Program-made: the position numbers and the translations under genes
Shown: piece after piece, positions 54,404-60,461 of the stretch
Layout: every line of letters begins with the position of its first letter
Position numbering within the stretch: position 1 is the first letter of the stretch
From: Vulcanimicrobiota bacterium
GTDB taxonomy: Bacteria > Vulcanimicrobiota > Vulcanimicrobiia > Vulcanimicrobiales > Vulcanimicrobiaceae
Assembly: GCA_027306785.1 (NCBI GenBank)
Contig: DAHUZB010000009.1
Location: 1 to 64,000 of the forward strand
DNA length: 64,000 bases
Reading direction: 5' to 3'
Notes under the pieces: generated by a model
Databases searched by the model: none
Told to the model about the DNA's origin: nothing
Seen by the model: only the letters and a program-made list of their open reading frames with translations

Positions 54404-54747
54404 CGGCTATCCTCACTCTCGGTAACGGTGAGCACCCAGCGGATCGCGCGCGCGTATTGATCGAGCTCGCGTAGGCTGCGCTGGAGGGCATTGAAGGCCG
54501 GGTCCTCACGGTAGATGCTACGCTTCTTCCCGGCCAGAAGTTTCCCGTACCGCACCGCGCTCTCGAGCTGTCGTTCGATCTCGGGCCATTCGACCTGTAG
54601 CGCGCGCTCCGAGGCGTCGCTGAGGCGGCCGATCACGGGCGCCGCGGCGAGTTCGGGCGCGTGCATCGCGCACTCCAGCCGCAGCAGCGCGTACTCGCTG
54701 CGCGCCGTGATGAACGATCCGAGCAATTGCACGAGACGAACGTCCAT
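54400..54747 (-). CDS. Small helical hypothetical protein
   Basis: This 115-aa helical protein is not recognised and has no signal peptide. The chosen ATG has GGGAG close upstream, and the longer frame beyond it is antisense to the divergent flavoprotein. Its pairing with the following coiled-coil gene suggests a two-protein module. A 123-bp gap separates it from the flavoprotein gene. Confidence 0.6.
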   Translation of the reverse strand: MDVRLVQLLGSFITARSEYALLRLECAMHAPELAAAPVIGRLSDASERALQVEWPEIERQLESAVRYGKLLAGKKRSIYREDPAFNALQRSLRELDQYARAIRWVLTVTESEDSR

Positions 54748-54870
54748 AGCTCCCGTTTCCCGCCTGTGCCGGGCTCGTCCCTTCGCGTGAAGGTCCCGAC
54801 CGGCGCTCTCGCCTACTATGCTCTTTCTAACGAGTCGGCATCGCGGAAGGATGCACGGGGGCGGCGCAAC

Positions 54871-56106
54871 GTGGCGGACGACGTTCGCAGGTATGTGATC
54901 GTAGGCAACGGTTTCGCGGGGACCACGGCGGCCGAGCAGTTGCGCAAGCACGACGCGGCCTGCGAGATCACGCTCTTCGGCGACGAACCCTATCCGCTCT
55001 ACAACCGCATCTCGCTGCCGCCGATGCTGCGCGGACAACTGCCGGAAGAGAAAGTCATGATGCGCGACCTCGCGTGGCACGAGGAGCATCGCATCGCGCT
55101 CAAACTCCGTACGCCGGTCGAAAGCATCGACGTGCACGATCGAACCGTGCTCGCGGACGGTCGCACGTATCCATTCGATGCGCTGCTGCTCGCGACGGGC
55201 GGACGCCCGAACGCCGCGCCCGCGCCCGGTGCGACGGGCGCGCACAACGTCTTCAATTTTCAGTATCTCGACGACACCCGCGCGATCTCCGAGCAGATCG
55301 ATCGCTCGAAAGCGGCGGTTGCGGTGGGCGGTTCATTCATCGCCTACGAGCTCGCCGAAGCGTTCGCCGCGCGCAAGATCGAGACGCATTGGGTGCTACG
55401 CGGCCCGCGCGTGCTGCATCGCCTGCTCGACGACGTGGCGGGCGAGTTCGTCGACGATGCGGCGCGCGCCGAGGGCGTGCATCTGCACTACGGCGACGAA
55501 GTTACGGAGTTCGTCCGTTCGAACGGCGCCGTCACCAAAGTGCGTACGAAGAAGGGCATGGAGATCGAGGCGCAGTGCTACGGCGTGGGTTTCGGACTCA
55601 CGATGAACGTAGAACTCACCGTGGGGACGCCGATCGAAGCGGGCGCGAGCGGTATTCTGTGCAACGATCGTCTGGAGACGAGCGTGCCGGGCATCTTCGC
55701 GGCGGGCGACGTCGCCGATTTCTACGATCCGATCCTCGAGATGCGCTACCGCATGGGCACGTGGAACAACGCGGGCGCGCACGGCAAGGTCGCCGCGCAG
55801 AACATGATGGGCGGCAGCGTCGCCTATCACGACGTGCCCGAATATTCATCGCTGCTCTTCAAAGGGCAGACGATCACGCAGTTCGGGCTCTCGCCCGACC
55901 TGCAGCCCGCGCTCGAAGTCGCGCGCACGATCGACCGCGAGAAGAAGTGGTATCGCGCGCTCTTTTTCTGGGATGAACGCTTGGTCGGCGGAATCATGCT
56001 CGGTAAGGGGAACCGCGCGGGCAAACGGAAGTACATCGACGCGATCAAAGCCAAAGAGCGCTTTCCGAAACCGCAATGGGAGGGTCTGCTGGAATGGACC
56101 GCATGA
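54871..56106 (+). CDS. FAD/NAD(P)-dependent pyridine-nucleotide oxidoreductase
   Basis: The 411-aa protein has an N-terminal FAD loop VIVGNGFAGTTAAEQLR, a middle NAD(P) domain AAVAVGGSFIAYELAEAF and the C-terminal FAD motif VPGIFAAGDVADF. It belongs to the group with NirB-N-terminal/rubredoxin reductase-like enzymes; there is no CxxC redox pair. Electron acceptor unknown. GTG 54871 is placed right before the Rossmann strand; GTG 54787 in the same frame is possible. It overlaps the selenocysteine-containing permease gene by 13 bp, which suggests that the pair function together. Confidence 0.85.
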   Translation: MADDVRRYVIVGNGFAGTTAAEQLRKHDAACEITLFGDEPYPLYNRISLPPMLRGQLPEEKVMMRDLAWHEEHRIALKLRTPVESIDVHDRTVLADGRTYPFDALLLATGGRPNAAPAPGATGAHNVFNFQYLDDTRAISEQIDRSKAAVAVGGSFIAYELAEAFAARKIETHWVLRGPRVLHRLLDDVAGEFVDDAARAEGVHLHYGDEVTEFVRSNGAVTKVRTKKGMEIEAQCYGVGFGLTMNVELTVGTPIEAGASGILCNDRLETSVPGIFAAGDVADFYDPILEMRYRMGTWNNAGAHGKVAAQNMMGGSVAYHDVPEYSSLLFKGQTITQFGLSPDLQPALEVARTIDREKKWYRALFFWDERLVGGIMLGKGNRAGKRKYIDAIKAKERFPKPQWEGLLEWTA

Positions 56107-57167
56107 TGGGCGCCGAGCGCGTCGACCGGTCACGATTGATCGCGGGGACCGCGATCTTTCTGGTCACGCTCGCCGCCGGGCTGCTCTACGTCAAGTGGCT
56201 GCCCTATTACGCCAAGAGTTTTATCGCGCTCTCGCATCACACGATCGGCGCCTCGATCGTGAGCGGCAAAGCGGCGGCGCCGCCCGCCGTCGGCCTCGCG
56301 GCCGCGTGGTCGTACGCGGTGACCTACTACTCGTTGATCTGGCAGGCGCTCGCGCTTGCACTCGTCGCGGGCGCCACGATCCAGGTACTCGTGCCGCGAC
56401 GTTGGATCCATCGCATCTTCTCCGGCAAGGATTTCCGCTCCGTGGCGATAGCAGGGACGCTCTCGCTCGGCGGGATGATGTGAACATGCTGCACCGGTCC
56501 ACTGGCAGTGGGCCTTCGCAAACAGAGCGCGTCAACGGGATCCGCCCTCGCGTTTCTGCTCGGTAACCCGGTTCTCAATCCCGCAGTTCTGATCTTCATC
56601 ACGGGCGTACTCGGCTGGCAGTTCATGCTGGTGCGCCTGATCCTGGGAGCGGCGCTCGTGCTCGGCACGGCGACGCTTGCCAATCGTCTCGTCGCCGACC
56701 GCGTCGACGTGGAAGTCGAGGACGCGCCGATCGAAGACGCTCGCAAGGGCGGACTCGATCTCTTCGTCGACTGGCTGAAGCTGCTCTGGTGGGAGATCTA
56801 CACGATCGTTCCCGGCTACTTCGTGCTCGTGCTGCTGCTCGGTGCGGCGCGCGCGTGGCTGTTCCATCCCGGCCTCACGCTCGCGGGCGGCGGCGTGCTC
56901 GTGCTGATCGGTCTTGCGATCGTCGGCACGCTCTTCGTCATTCCGACGGCGGGCGAGGTCCCGATCATTCAGACGCTGATGGGCTTCGGGCTCGGCGCTC
57001 CGGCCGCGGCGGTGCTCTTGATGACGCTCCCCGCGATCAGCCTGCCGACGCTCTTCATCGTGCGCAGCGCCTTCCCGCGGCGCGTGCTGCTCTTCGCCAT
57101 GCTCGCCGTGGCGCTCACCGGCCTCGTCGCCGGATTGATCGTCTCGCTGATCCCGGGCTTTACCTAA
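56094..57167 (+). CDS. YraQ/ArsP-type (PF03773) permease with in-frame UGA, candidate selenoprotein
   Basis: Read through one TGA (56481-56483), the frame encodes 357 aa with Sec at residue 130. Both sides belong to one permease: residues 1-129 have two or three TM helices; the region just after reads Thr-Cys-Cys-Thr-Gly-Pro-Leu-Ala-Val-Gly-Leu, then SALAFLLGNPVLNPAVLIF, the family signature, then about five more TM helices. Relatives carry Cys-rich GMMCxCC at this spot, so the TGA stands at a Cys. A SECIS-like hairpin follows, and selD is next door. ATG 56094 has GGGAGGG 9 nt upstream; ATG 56103 is possible. A sequencing error or plain nonsense mutation is less likely. Substrate unknown; an oxyanion or organo-metalloid is a guess. 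Confidence 0.85.
56481..56516 (+). promoter_or_regulatory. SECIS-like element of the permease gene
   Basis: After the TGA, GGTCCACT (56496-56503) pairs with AGTGGGCC (56507-56514): eight pairs including one U-G, closing a GGC triloop. Counting the U of UGA as 1, the loop is at 24-26, about where the E. coli fdhF SECIS loop sits, and it begins with G as bacterial SECIS loops do. It lies wholly in coding sequence. Confidence 0.75.
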
Positions 57168-58200
57168 CCCGAATCCCCGGCTCGCCCACGATCGTGCCGA
57201 TGGCCGCCGCACGCACGCCGCGTGCGGCGGCTTGCGTTTGATAGCGGGCCGCATCGGCGGCGGGCATCGCGAGCAGCAGGCCCCCCGAGGTTTGCGCATC
57301 GGCGAGCAGCAAGCGGAGCGCTTCATCGACGCGCTCGTCGAAGCGTACACCCGCGGCGAGCGCCTGCGCGAGGTTCGTCTTGGTGCCCCCGGGTGCGACG
57401 CCCGCTCGCGCAAGTTCGAGCGCACCCGCGAGGAGCGGGACGTCGCTCGCGACGATCTCCGCGCCCGCGTTCGCGCCCGAGACCATCTCGCGCAGGTGGC
57501 CGAGCAGGCCGAATCCCGTGACGTCGGTCGCGGCGTGCACCTCGCACCCGTCGAGCAGTTCGGCGGCGGTGCGGTTCAGCGCGCTCATCGAGGCAATTGC
57601 TACGGTCATCGCGTCGTCGCCGATGCGGTCGCTGCGTCGCGCGGTGGTGAGGATGCCGGTGCCGATGGGCTTGGTGAGCAGCAGCACGTCGCCGGGCTGC
57701 GCTGTCGAGTTGCGCAGTACGCGATCGGGATGGATCACGCCGGTGACCGCGAGGCCGTACTTCGGCTCGTCGTCTTTGATCGTGTGGCCGCCGATGATGT
57801 TGATGCCGGCTTCGCGCGCCTTGTCGGCGCCGCCGCGCAGCACCGCGCCGATCGTCTGCGGATCCATATCTTCGGGAAAGGCCGCGATCGCGAGCGCGCT
57901 GATGGGGCGTCCGCCCATGGCGTACACATCGGAGAGGGCGTTCGCCGCCGCGATCGCGCCGAAGGTGTACGGATCGTCGACGATGGGCGTGAAGAAGTCG
58001 ACGGTCTGCACGAGCGCGAGATCGTCGCGTAGTTTGTAGACGCCCGCGTCGTCGGCGGTGGAGGTGCCGACGAGCACGTTCGGGTCATCGATCGGGGGCA
58101 GCTCGCGCAAGACTTGCGCGAGGACGCTCGCGTCCATCTTGGCCGCTCAACCGGCGCAGGACGATAGATGCGTCAGGCGGTGCAGATCCTCTCTACTCAC
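57160..58200 (-). CDS. selD: Selenide, water dikinase, itself a selenoprotein (in-frame UGA)
   Basis: The full frame of 346 aa starts at GTG 58200, not at the ATG 58137 that a caller stopping at TGA would pick. Codons 10-19 read Thr-His-Leu-Ser-Ser-Cys-Ala-Gly-Sec-Ala, matching the SelD active-site loop with Sec18 (TGA 58149-58147) in the place of the catalytic Cys or Sec. The ATP-binding parts follow: GTSTADDAG, TVDFFTPIVDDPYTFG, SDVYAMGGRPISALAI and IIGGHTIKDDEPKYG. It makes selenophosphate from selenide and ATP. It overlaps the SenA-like gene stop, so both are one operon, and its 3' end overlaps the permease gene by 8 bp. Confidence 0.92.
58120..58149 (-). promoter_or_regulatory. SECIS-like element of selD
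   Basis: On the reverse strand, after the UGA, GGACG pairs with CGUCC around the loop CGAG (58135-58122). Two more pairs extend the stem beyond a single bulged U, as in the E. coli SECIS with its bulged U. The loop is at positions 20-23 from the U of UGA, with G in the first two loop bases. Confidence 0.7.
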
Positions 58201-59443
58201 AGGTCCGAAACCCCGTCAGGATGTCGCGTCGTTGCGGCCGATAGAAATTTCTCCAGCGCGTCGTGATCATGCGCGCGCGCGTGGACCACGCGCCGCCGCG
58301 CAACACGACGTGATCGCCGAACCACGGCTCCGAGTATTCGCGGTACGGATCGGGGGCGAAGCCCGGATACGGGCCGAACGGCGTCGAGGTCCACTCCCAC
58401 ACGTTGCCGAGCAGGTCGCGCACGCCGAAAGGGCTCATCCCCGCGGGGAAGGCGCCGACCTCGGTGAGTTCACCGTACCAGCCGTCAAGATTGGCATGCT
58501 GCGGGGTCGGCTCGTCCTCGCCCCACGGATAGGTGCGACGCGTGCCGCCGGTCGCGGCGATCTCCCACTCGGCCTCGGAGGGCAGGCGTTTACCGACGAA
58601 CGCGCAGTAGGCCTGCGCTTCGAAGGCGTTCACGCCGACGACGGGCTCGTTCGGTGCGAGCGCGATCCAGCGGTCGAACGAACGGCGTTCCCACCCCTGC
58701 GCACCGCGGCGCCACGAGAGCGGATGCAACGGCTGTGCCTCCGCAAGCCAAACGCGGCCCGCTTCGCTCCAATGGTCCGCGTTGTCATACCCGCCCGCCT
58801 CGACGAAACGCACGAACTCGGCGTTGGTCACCGGTTCGCGCGCGATCGCGTACGCGTCGAGATGCACGTCGTGCTCCCACTTTTCGTTGTCCCACACGAA
58901 GGCGTCGGTCGGGCGCGCCCCGATGCGATAGGTTCCCGCCGCAATCGCAACGTGTTCGCCGGAGCGATCGCCGCGCGGCGGTGCGTGCGGCGGCGGAAGC
59001 GGCGGCTTCGCGTAGGCGAGCCCTTGACGCGTGTAGAGGATCGCTTCGCCGTGCATATCTTCGTGGTGCAGCGCGAGGCGGCTGAAGTAGCGCGAGGCGG
59101 CGGTGGGATCGTCGCCGATGCCGGCGATCGTGCGTTCGAGCTGCTCGGCGAGATATGCGAGCGTACCCGCGCGATCGGGCAGCGGCAACGCCCAGCGATC
59201 GTCGTGCGCGACGCGCGCGGAATCGTACAGCCCGTCGGCATCCGCACGCATCGGCGGCGCGCCCGCGAGCGTGCGCAGCGTCCAAAACTCGGCGAAATAC
59301 GCGACGTGGCCGAGCTCCCAGAGCATCGGGTTCACCGTCGCGAGCAGGGGCAGGTGCAGTTGCTCGTCGCGGAGATCGCGCACGTAGGCGAGCGTCCGTC
59401 GCCGGGCGTCGCGCAGGGCCGATCGCAGATCGAGCTCGCTCAT
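58193..59443 (-). CDS. senA: EgtB-like selenoneine synthase (SenA candidate)
   Basis: The 416-aa protein has an N-terminal DinB-like four-helix part with the iron ligands (ELGHVAYFAEF and LHHEDMHGEA, HxxxH) and a C-terminal formylglycine-generating-enzyme domain (GTYRIGA, VTNAEFVRFVEAGGYDN, KRLPSEAEWEIAATGG, NVWEWTSTPF, LRGGAWSTR). This is the EgtB/SenA architecture of mononuclear iron sulfoxide/selenoxide synthases, which join cysteine, a thiol sugar or a selenosugar to hercynine. The overlap with selD and divergent senB point to selenoneine, as in the senABC clusters described in Variovorax, rather than ergothioneine. No hercynine methyltransferase EgtD is nearby. Confidence 0.85.
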   Translation of the reverse strand: MSELDLRSALRDARRRTLAYVRDLRDEQLHLPLLATVNPMLWELGHVAYFAEFWTLRTLAGAPPMRADADGLYDSARVAHDDRWALPLPDRAGTLAYLAEQLERTIAGIGDDPTAASRYFSRLALHHEDMHGEAILYTRQGLAYAKPPLPPPHAPPRGDRSGEHVAIAAGTYRIGARPTDAFVWDNEKWEHDVHLDAYAIAREPVTNAEFVRFVEAGGYDNADHWSEAGRVWLAEAQPLHPLSWRRGAQGWERRSFDRWIALAPNEPVVGVNAFEAQAYCAFVGKRLPSEAEWEIAATGGTRRTYPWGEDEPTPQHANLDGWYGELTEVGAFPAGMSPFGVRDLLGNVWEWTSTPFGPYPGFAPDPYREYSEPWFGDHVVLRGGAWSTRARMITTRWRNFYRPQRRDILTGFRTCE

Positions 59444-59483
59444 CTCAAGGCGAGGTCGTTCTACGCCGCGAAACGCGCGCCTT

Positions 59484-60461
59484 GTGTCGCATCCACGCAC
59501 GCGTCTGCGCATCGGGATCGTCGCGCCCGCCGCCGCCACGCGCCGCACCGGCAACGCGCACACGGCGCAGCGCTATGCAGCCTTCTTGCGCTCGGCCGGG
59601 CATCGCGTGCGTATGCTCTGCGCATGGAACGGTGAGGCGCTCGATCTGCTGATCGCGCTGCACGCCCGTAAGAGCGCAAGCGCCGTGCTCGACTTCGCGC
59701 GAGCATATCCGGATCGCCCGGTCGTGGTCGTGCTCACCGGCACCGATGTCTACCGCGACCTCGCCCGCTCGAAACGAGCGCTCCGTGCACTCGAGCTCGC
59801 GTCGCGGATCATCACGCTGCAGCCCTATGCGATCGCACGCATTCCGCGCCGCCTGCACGCGAAAGCGATCGCGATCGTGCAGTCGGCGACGGCGCCCCGC
59901 ACGACGGCATCGAGAGCCGAGAGCGGCGCGCAGTTCTGCGTGCTCGGTCATCTGCGCGCGGAGAAAGATCCGCTGCGCGCGGCCTACGCGCTGCGCTACC
60001 TTCGGCGCGCGCTCGATCTGCGGGTGGTGCAGGCCGGAGCCGCGCTCGATGCGCGGTACGCGGGCATCGCGCGTCGCATCGCCGAGCGTGACGCACGCTA
60101 CGCCTACATCGGCGACGTCCCGCACGCGCGGGCGCAACGTATTCTGTCGCGGGCTACCGCGCTCGTGCTCGGCTCGCGCATGGAAGGCGGAGCAAACGTC
60201 CTCTCCGAGGCCATCGCCGCGGGTACGCCCGTGCTCGCCTCGCGTATCGGCGGCAACGTCGGGATTCTCGGGCCCGACTATCCGGGCTACTTTCCCGTCG
60301 GTGACACCCGCGCGTGCGCCGCCCTCATGCGCCGATGCGTGGAGGATCGCATCTTTCTCGAGGCGTTGCGTAGCCGCGTGCGCCGCCTCAAACCGCTCGT
60401 CGCGCCGACGCGTGAACGGCGCCTACTCCTCGGCGTCGTCGCTAGCGCGATCCGTGGGTGA
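59484..60461 (+). CDS. senB: SenB-type selenosugar synthase (TIGR04348 glycosyltransferase)
   Basis: The 325-aa GT4-like protein has the TIGR04348/SenB pattern: GNAHTAQRYAAFLRSAGHRV, DLLIALHARKSASAVLDFA, VVVLTGTDVYRDL, GHLRAEKDPLRAAYA and, in the nucleotide-sugar half, GSRMEGGANVLSEAIAAGTPV. SenB joins selenophosphate to a UDP-sugar to give the selenosugar used by SenA. GTG 59484 is used; no good Shine-Dalgarno sequence is visible, and the 40-bp gap to senA is the shared regulatory region. Its end overlaps the convergent DUF3089 gene by 20 bp. Confidence 0.88.
   Translation: MSHPRTRLRIGIVAPAAATRRTGNAHTAQRYAAFLRSAGHRVRMLCAWNGEALDLLIALHARKSASAVLDFARAYPDRPVVVVLTGTDVYRDLARSKRALRALELASRIITLQPYAIARIPRRLHAKAIAIVQSATAPRTTASRAESGAQFCVLGHLRAEKDPLRAAYALRYLRRALDLRVVQAGAALDARYAGIARRIAERDARYAYIGDVPHARAQRILSRATALVLGSRMEGGANVLSEAIAAGTPVLASRIGGNVGILGPDYPGYFPVGDTRACAALMRRCVEDRIFLEALRSRVRRLKPLVAPTRERRLLLGVVASAIRG

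Follow-up and report, generated by a model that had tools for sequence, protein, structure and literature searches.

An in-frame TGA codon within a gene for a membrane permease raises two questions: whether the codon is read as selenocysteine (Sec) or as a stop and, if it is read as Sec, what such a permease would carry. The gene lies in a 64,000-nucleotide stretch of DNA from a Vulcanimicrobiota bacterium, analysed here as a whole and referred to as the window (Table 1). The permease frame is interrupted solely by this TGA and ends, after 357 codons, at a TAA. The initial annotation had taken two ORFs in the same frame (56076-56483 and 56508-57167) to be one permease split only by the TGA. 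This was borne out, as both are halves of a single PF03773 (ArsP_1) protein: the joined translation matched that family, and no other Pfam family, at 78.5 bits (above the gathering cut-off of 32.3) over residues 81-351, on either side of the TGA. A GGAGGG is positioned 9 nt upstream of the permease ATG, which itself lies inside the 3' end of the preceding FAD-oxidoreductase gene.

Table 1. Features of the permease locus in the window.
Feature	Position	Strand	Remarks
FAD/NAD-dependent oxidoreductase (Pyr_redox_2)	54661..56106	+	overlaps permease start by 13 nt
Sec-containing YraQ-type permease	56094..57167	+	357 aa, codon 130 = TGA (Sec); translated with TGA=U; PF03773; orthologs with TGA or Cys
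Sec codon TGA, in frame	56481..56483	+	position conserved as TGA/TGY
SECIS apical stem-loop, GGUCCACU-GGC-AGUGGGCC	56496..56514	+	8-bp stem; pairing in 100% of cells (11 alleles); compensatory changes at 3 pairs
selD/senC, selenophosphate synthetase, Sec form	57160..58179	-	TIGR00476, 367 bits
senA, selenoneine synthase	58193..59563	-	NF041186, 483 bits (cut-off 420)
senB, selenosugar synthase	59484..60461	+	TIGR04348, 359 bits (cut-off 300)

Comparison with orthologs revealed that position 130 tolerates two residues. In 115 loci, some of them duplicated, it was Sec (30) or Cys (85) and nothing else, and the motif MM-[U/C]-T-C-C was present in all 115 (some counted twice). Residues 128-133 (MM[U/C]TCC) were likewise invariant in an alignment of 69 sequences. 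The window protein reads GGMM-U-T-C-C-T where relatives have MM-C-T-C-C, which agrees with the earlier proposal that the TGA precedes Thr-Cys-Cys and aligns with a Cys of relatives. In a set of 60 relatives the same in-frame TGA was present in orthologs both close and remote (identity down to 51%), and others had Cys. The permease was found in 23 of the 149 genomes sampled from the phylum (Eremiobacterota), with the TGA in 12 of them and no TGA in 11. A scan of genome contigs with the permease sequence gave 80 loci, many from Bacillota, Actinomycetota, Pseudomonadota, Chloroflexota, and Rokuibacteriota; beyond Eremiobacterota, TGA forms were present in four MAGs from two further phyla (L069 of the Rokubacteria; L078, L090, and L095 of the Bacillota). 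Its recurrence in 12 of the 23 Eremiobacterota permease genomes and in these four MAGs shows that the TGA is neither a chance event nor a sequencing error for TGC or TGT, the possibility that had been raised at the outset. At least six changes between Sec and Cys, all forced by well-supported branches, were counted on a tree of 70 sequences.

Downstream of the codon, the stem of a putative SECIS element begins 12 nt past the TGA and comprises 8 bp closed by a loop of GGC or GGU. All eight pairs were formed in 11 of the 13 distinct TGA alleles and in none of the 70 Cys alleles (mode 4, maximum 7). Across those 11 alleles three pairs had changed on both sides (GC to CG, CG to GC, and UA to CG); covariation was 0.318 versus 0.143 in shuffles (0/500), and controls slid along the sequence had at most 62.5% of cells paired. 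In the window alone the folding energy was not unusual (z -0.11); the evidence for the SECIS is comparative. Full pairing was missing in two TGA alleles. One (L016/G011) has a slipped stem of 7 bp, shifted by one base, and retains 4 of 8 pairs in the common register. The other, in genome G022 (locus L020, G022:C9:242914-244834), is a TGA-form ortholog that breaks off soon after the Sec site; part of its C-terminal half lies ~1.4 kb away.

Sec decoding also needs its machinery, and the check for SelA, SelB, and tRNA-Sec that accompanied the first reading came out in its favour: the genome has selA (508 bits), selB (304.6 bits), selD, and a tRNA-Sec with anticodon UCA. Outside the phylum, selA is present in all four genomes with a TGA form, and the five permease genomes lacking selA all have the Cys form (TGA form in 0/5). 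We considered, and rejected as extremely improbable, that the TGA is a true stop in a decaying or split gene from which no selenoprotein is made. The truncated ortholog in G022 is what such decay would look like, but the TGA, the frame, and the SECIS pairing have been kept over several lineages and the second half of the protein is fully conserved. UGA 130 is thus almost certainly decoded as Sec, and the gene a real selenoprotein, with insertion likely occurring via SelB and tRNA-Sec at the hairpin directly downstream, for which the support is comparative.

The relatives of known name place the protein more closely. Enterobacterial YraQ (UPF0718/COG0701, PF03773) is of the same fold family and 43-46% identical to it over 88% of the length; its motif, as read in Enterobacter and Klebsiella proteins, is MMC[T/S]CCAAPV, with Cys where the window protein has Sec. 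Judged by sequence, the window protein is a predicted inner-membrane permease of the YraQ family, in a Sec-containing form. The Enterobacteriaceae locus, yraR-yraQ-dolP, is without adjacent sel genes, unlike the window, but YraQ hosts such as E. coli do have selD. No function for yraQ was given in the literature found.

Membership of two related permease families was tested and rejected, as scores fell well below both equivalog cut-offs. Against the Cu/Zn efflux family SO_0444 (NF033936) the window protein scored 52.5 bits (cut-off 300), and SO_0444 is therefore another family, with the assigned role of Cu/Zn efflux, although it belongs to the same permease group and its Sec form shares a U-x-C motif with the window protein. 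We take SO_0444 to be a PF03773 member, and its similarity to the window protein, while sub-threshold, points the same way. Against SaoE (NF040736) the score was 66.9 bits (cut-off 325); SaoE is a related permease of selenoprotein-rich operons (the Sec-assisted organometallic system), whereas no sao genes were seen in the window region. ArsP, a methylarsenite efflux permease, has PF03773 in common with the window protein, but no arsenic gene context was seen at the window. The predicted selenium transporter YedE/YeeE belongs to a different Pfam family (PF04143).

The initial annotation had suggested that a Sec-containing permease of this kind may be new, and that held in part. According to a 2026 review, prokaryotes have no identified system for specific, high-affinity transport of selenium (PMC13188914). 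The YraQ family is absent from a 2026 review table of 119 prokaryotic selenoprotein families, and it is not named as selenium-linked in the accessible literature, though papers on selenoprotein neighbourhoods may differ. The permease group does have one entry in that table, the sister family SO_0444 (UxC), whose Sec form, WP_014809615, is documented by GenBank annotation only; Sec in this permease fold is accordingly not wholly new. YedE/YeeE has a Sec form in the same table, and SaoE is not listed there as a selenoprotein.

An AlphaFold2 model of the permease, built with 69 orthologs as input (pLDDT 93.5, pTM 0.91), has, going by its list of helices, two like halves at residues 68-199 and 220-352. 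Residue 130 falls in a break between the helices at 114-124 and 131-143, and a matching break in the second half, P-T-A-G-E-V-P (284-290), is conserved too. By this secondary structure, Sec130 is predicted to lie at the tip of a helical hairpin that reaches halfway through the membrane. Cys132 and Cys133 are its close neighbours, and in the second repeat GEVP takes up the equivalent position; U-T-C-C is taken as the probable substrate site. No relatives of known structure were found in the PDB by sequence, and a Foldseek search of the PDB returned nothing significant (best E 0.11, NaS1, TM-score 0.24). Elevator-type carriers (NaS1, CNT, and VcINDY) were among the weak top matches, to which TM-scores of 0.2 lend no weight.

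The gene neighbourhood gives the first indication of what the substrate may be. In the window selD is convergent to the permease and is followed by senA and senB, and the block from 57160 to 60461 is, from its profile matches, a complete predicted selenoneine biosynthesis set, with selD as the senC function. This selD carries the motif SCAG-U-AAK, with its TGA upstream of the annotated ATG at 58137 (57160-58137 extended to 58179), and the whole-genome match of selD, 57256-58179, contains one TGA. When ORFs from the 80 loci and the window were compared all against all, little recurred as a real neighbour beyond common ABC and regulatory genes. Two genes stood out across several phyla: selD, which adjoins the permease in 20 of 80 loci (Eremiobacterota, Bacillota, Pseudomonadota, and Actinomycetota), and senA, beside it in 15 of 80, including loci of Bacillota, Pseudomonadota, and Actinomycetota. 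Among the 23 Eremiobacterota permease genomes, selD adjoins the permease in 16. YedE, TusA, rhodanese, prd, SelA, and SelB were not found as neighbours within the flanking sequence covered at the 80 loci. The FAD/NAD(P)-dependent oxidoreductase is at the permease start only in near relatives (L048 and L049); at a guess, it could reduce selenium species for SelD.

Co-occurrence was assessed in genomes retrieved by the permease sequence alone. In the 48 such genomes outside the phylum, selD was present in 45, selA in 43, and one or the other in 47. The lone exception, the MAG G171, has neither, and its near sister G172 has selD. Background rates of selD were 24% in Lactobacillales (71/295) and 28% in Actinomycetes (111/395), and 45 of 48 against the 24% rate gives a binomial probability of ~1e-24, with relatedness ignored. 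The permease was present in only 3 of the 295 Lactobacillales genomes, all three of which have selD. Within Eremiobacterota selD is present in 118 of 149 genomes, which makes co-occurrence uninformative there, so only adjacency counts. That the permease transports selenoneine, or a selenosugar, for the sen cluster would explain why senA, senB, and selD/senC adjoin it in the window and why senA recurs beside it elsewhere. However, true senB was found in just 5 of the 48 genomes, as against 47 with selD or selA, which weakens selenoneine transport as a general function and leaves it improbable. Because true senB is that infrequent, the common denominator is SelD rather than selenoneine.

The Cys members of the family also track selD. 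This is not predicted by metal or metalloid efflux (methylarsenite, Hg, or Cu/Zn), in which Sec would strengthen the binding of soft metals. PF03773 membership, the CxC-type site, and the sub-threshold similarity to SaoE and SO_0444 are compatible with an efflux pump of that sort, yet no ars, mer, or copper gene was a recurrent neighbour in the 80 loci and the window, and we consider it quite unlikely. The metalloid-active Sec envisaged at first was likewise not favoured: selD, senA, and senB adjoining the gene, together with the family-wide co-occurrence with selD, point to selenium itself over metalloid resistance, a context that the initial annotation had not remarked on. A selenium-linked function of the permease family is therefore very likely.

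On megaplasmids of Ligilactobacillus salivarius (L151 and L157) the permease gene is part of a selenium island. It has a YeeE/YedE gene on one side and an aldo/keto reductase gene on the other, and it adjoins genes for TusA, a rhodanese, and proline reductase (prdA/B/D). YedE is itself a membrane protein that tracks selD (PMC5322559). The corresponding island of strain JCM1046 contains selB, a cysteine desulfurase gene, selA, and selD (PMC4165912), the permease there being matched by gene order and length rather than by sequence.

We hypothesize that the protein is a selenoprotein of the YraQ family that moves selenium species across the inner membrane in service of SelD, a reading that we hold to be reasonably probable as a whole. 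The U-T-C-C selenolate/thiolate cluster would capture reduced or thiol-bound selenium species, and SelD would then feed Sec synthesis and, in the window genome, selenoneine synthesis. The YraQ family as a whole, with YraQ of E. coli among its members, is a strong candidate for the selenium transporter of bacteria. More tentatively, the family may be a dedicated bacterial selenium transporter, its Sec members being gated by their own substrate nutrient with Sec in the transport site. Some observations fit these proposals less well: the characterised relatives ArsP and SO_0444 export other things, G171 is a permease genome in which neither selD nor selA was detected, and yraQ in Enterobacteriaceae lies away from sel genes.

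The direction of transport is a more evenly balanced matter. Import, which has about an even chance of being correct, is slightly favoured because the gene occurs in compact selenium-use islands and beside selD. The alternative, possible but rather unlikely, is an exporter that expels surplus reduced selenium (such as selenide or methylselenol), with Sec as a built-in feedback valve. Synthesis of a UGA-gated protein requires plentiful selenium, and gating of this kind would suit an exporter well; the same idea was put forward for YedE by Lin et al., and the named relatives in the superfamily, SaoE and SO_0444, are efflux proteins. A Sec-dependent importer would also be hard to restart after selenium loss, which favours export, although SelD is equally dependent. 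Against export, supply explains at least equally well why the gene adjoins selD and why it belongs to a compact, mobile island for selenium utilisation.

Whether it imports or exports, a selenium permease of the YraQ family would be testable in a laboratory strain, as the family co-occurs with selD about as closely as could be hoped for, adjoins selD in four phyla, and includes an E. coli gene. It would also be a transporter with Sec at its apparent substrate site, and one whose Sec and Cys versions could be compared within a single genome. Such Sec and Cys copies were found together in three Bacillota MAGs (L078/L077, L090/L072, and L095/L103), possibly representing a selenium-dependent isoform switch, and the Sec copies L078 and L090 adjoin senA.
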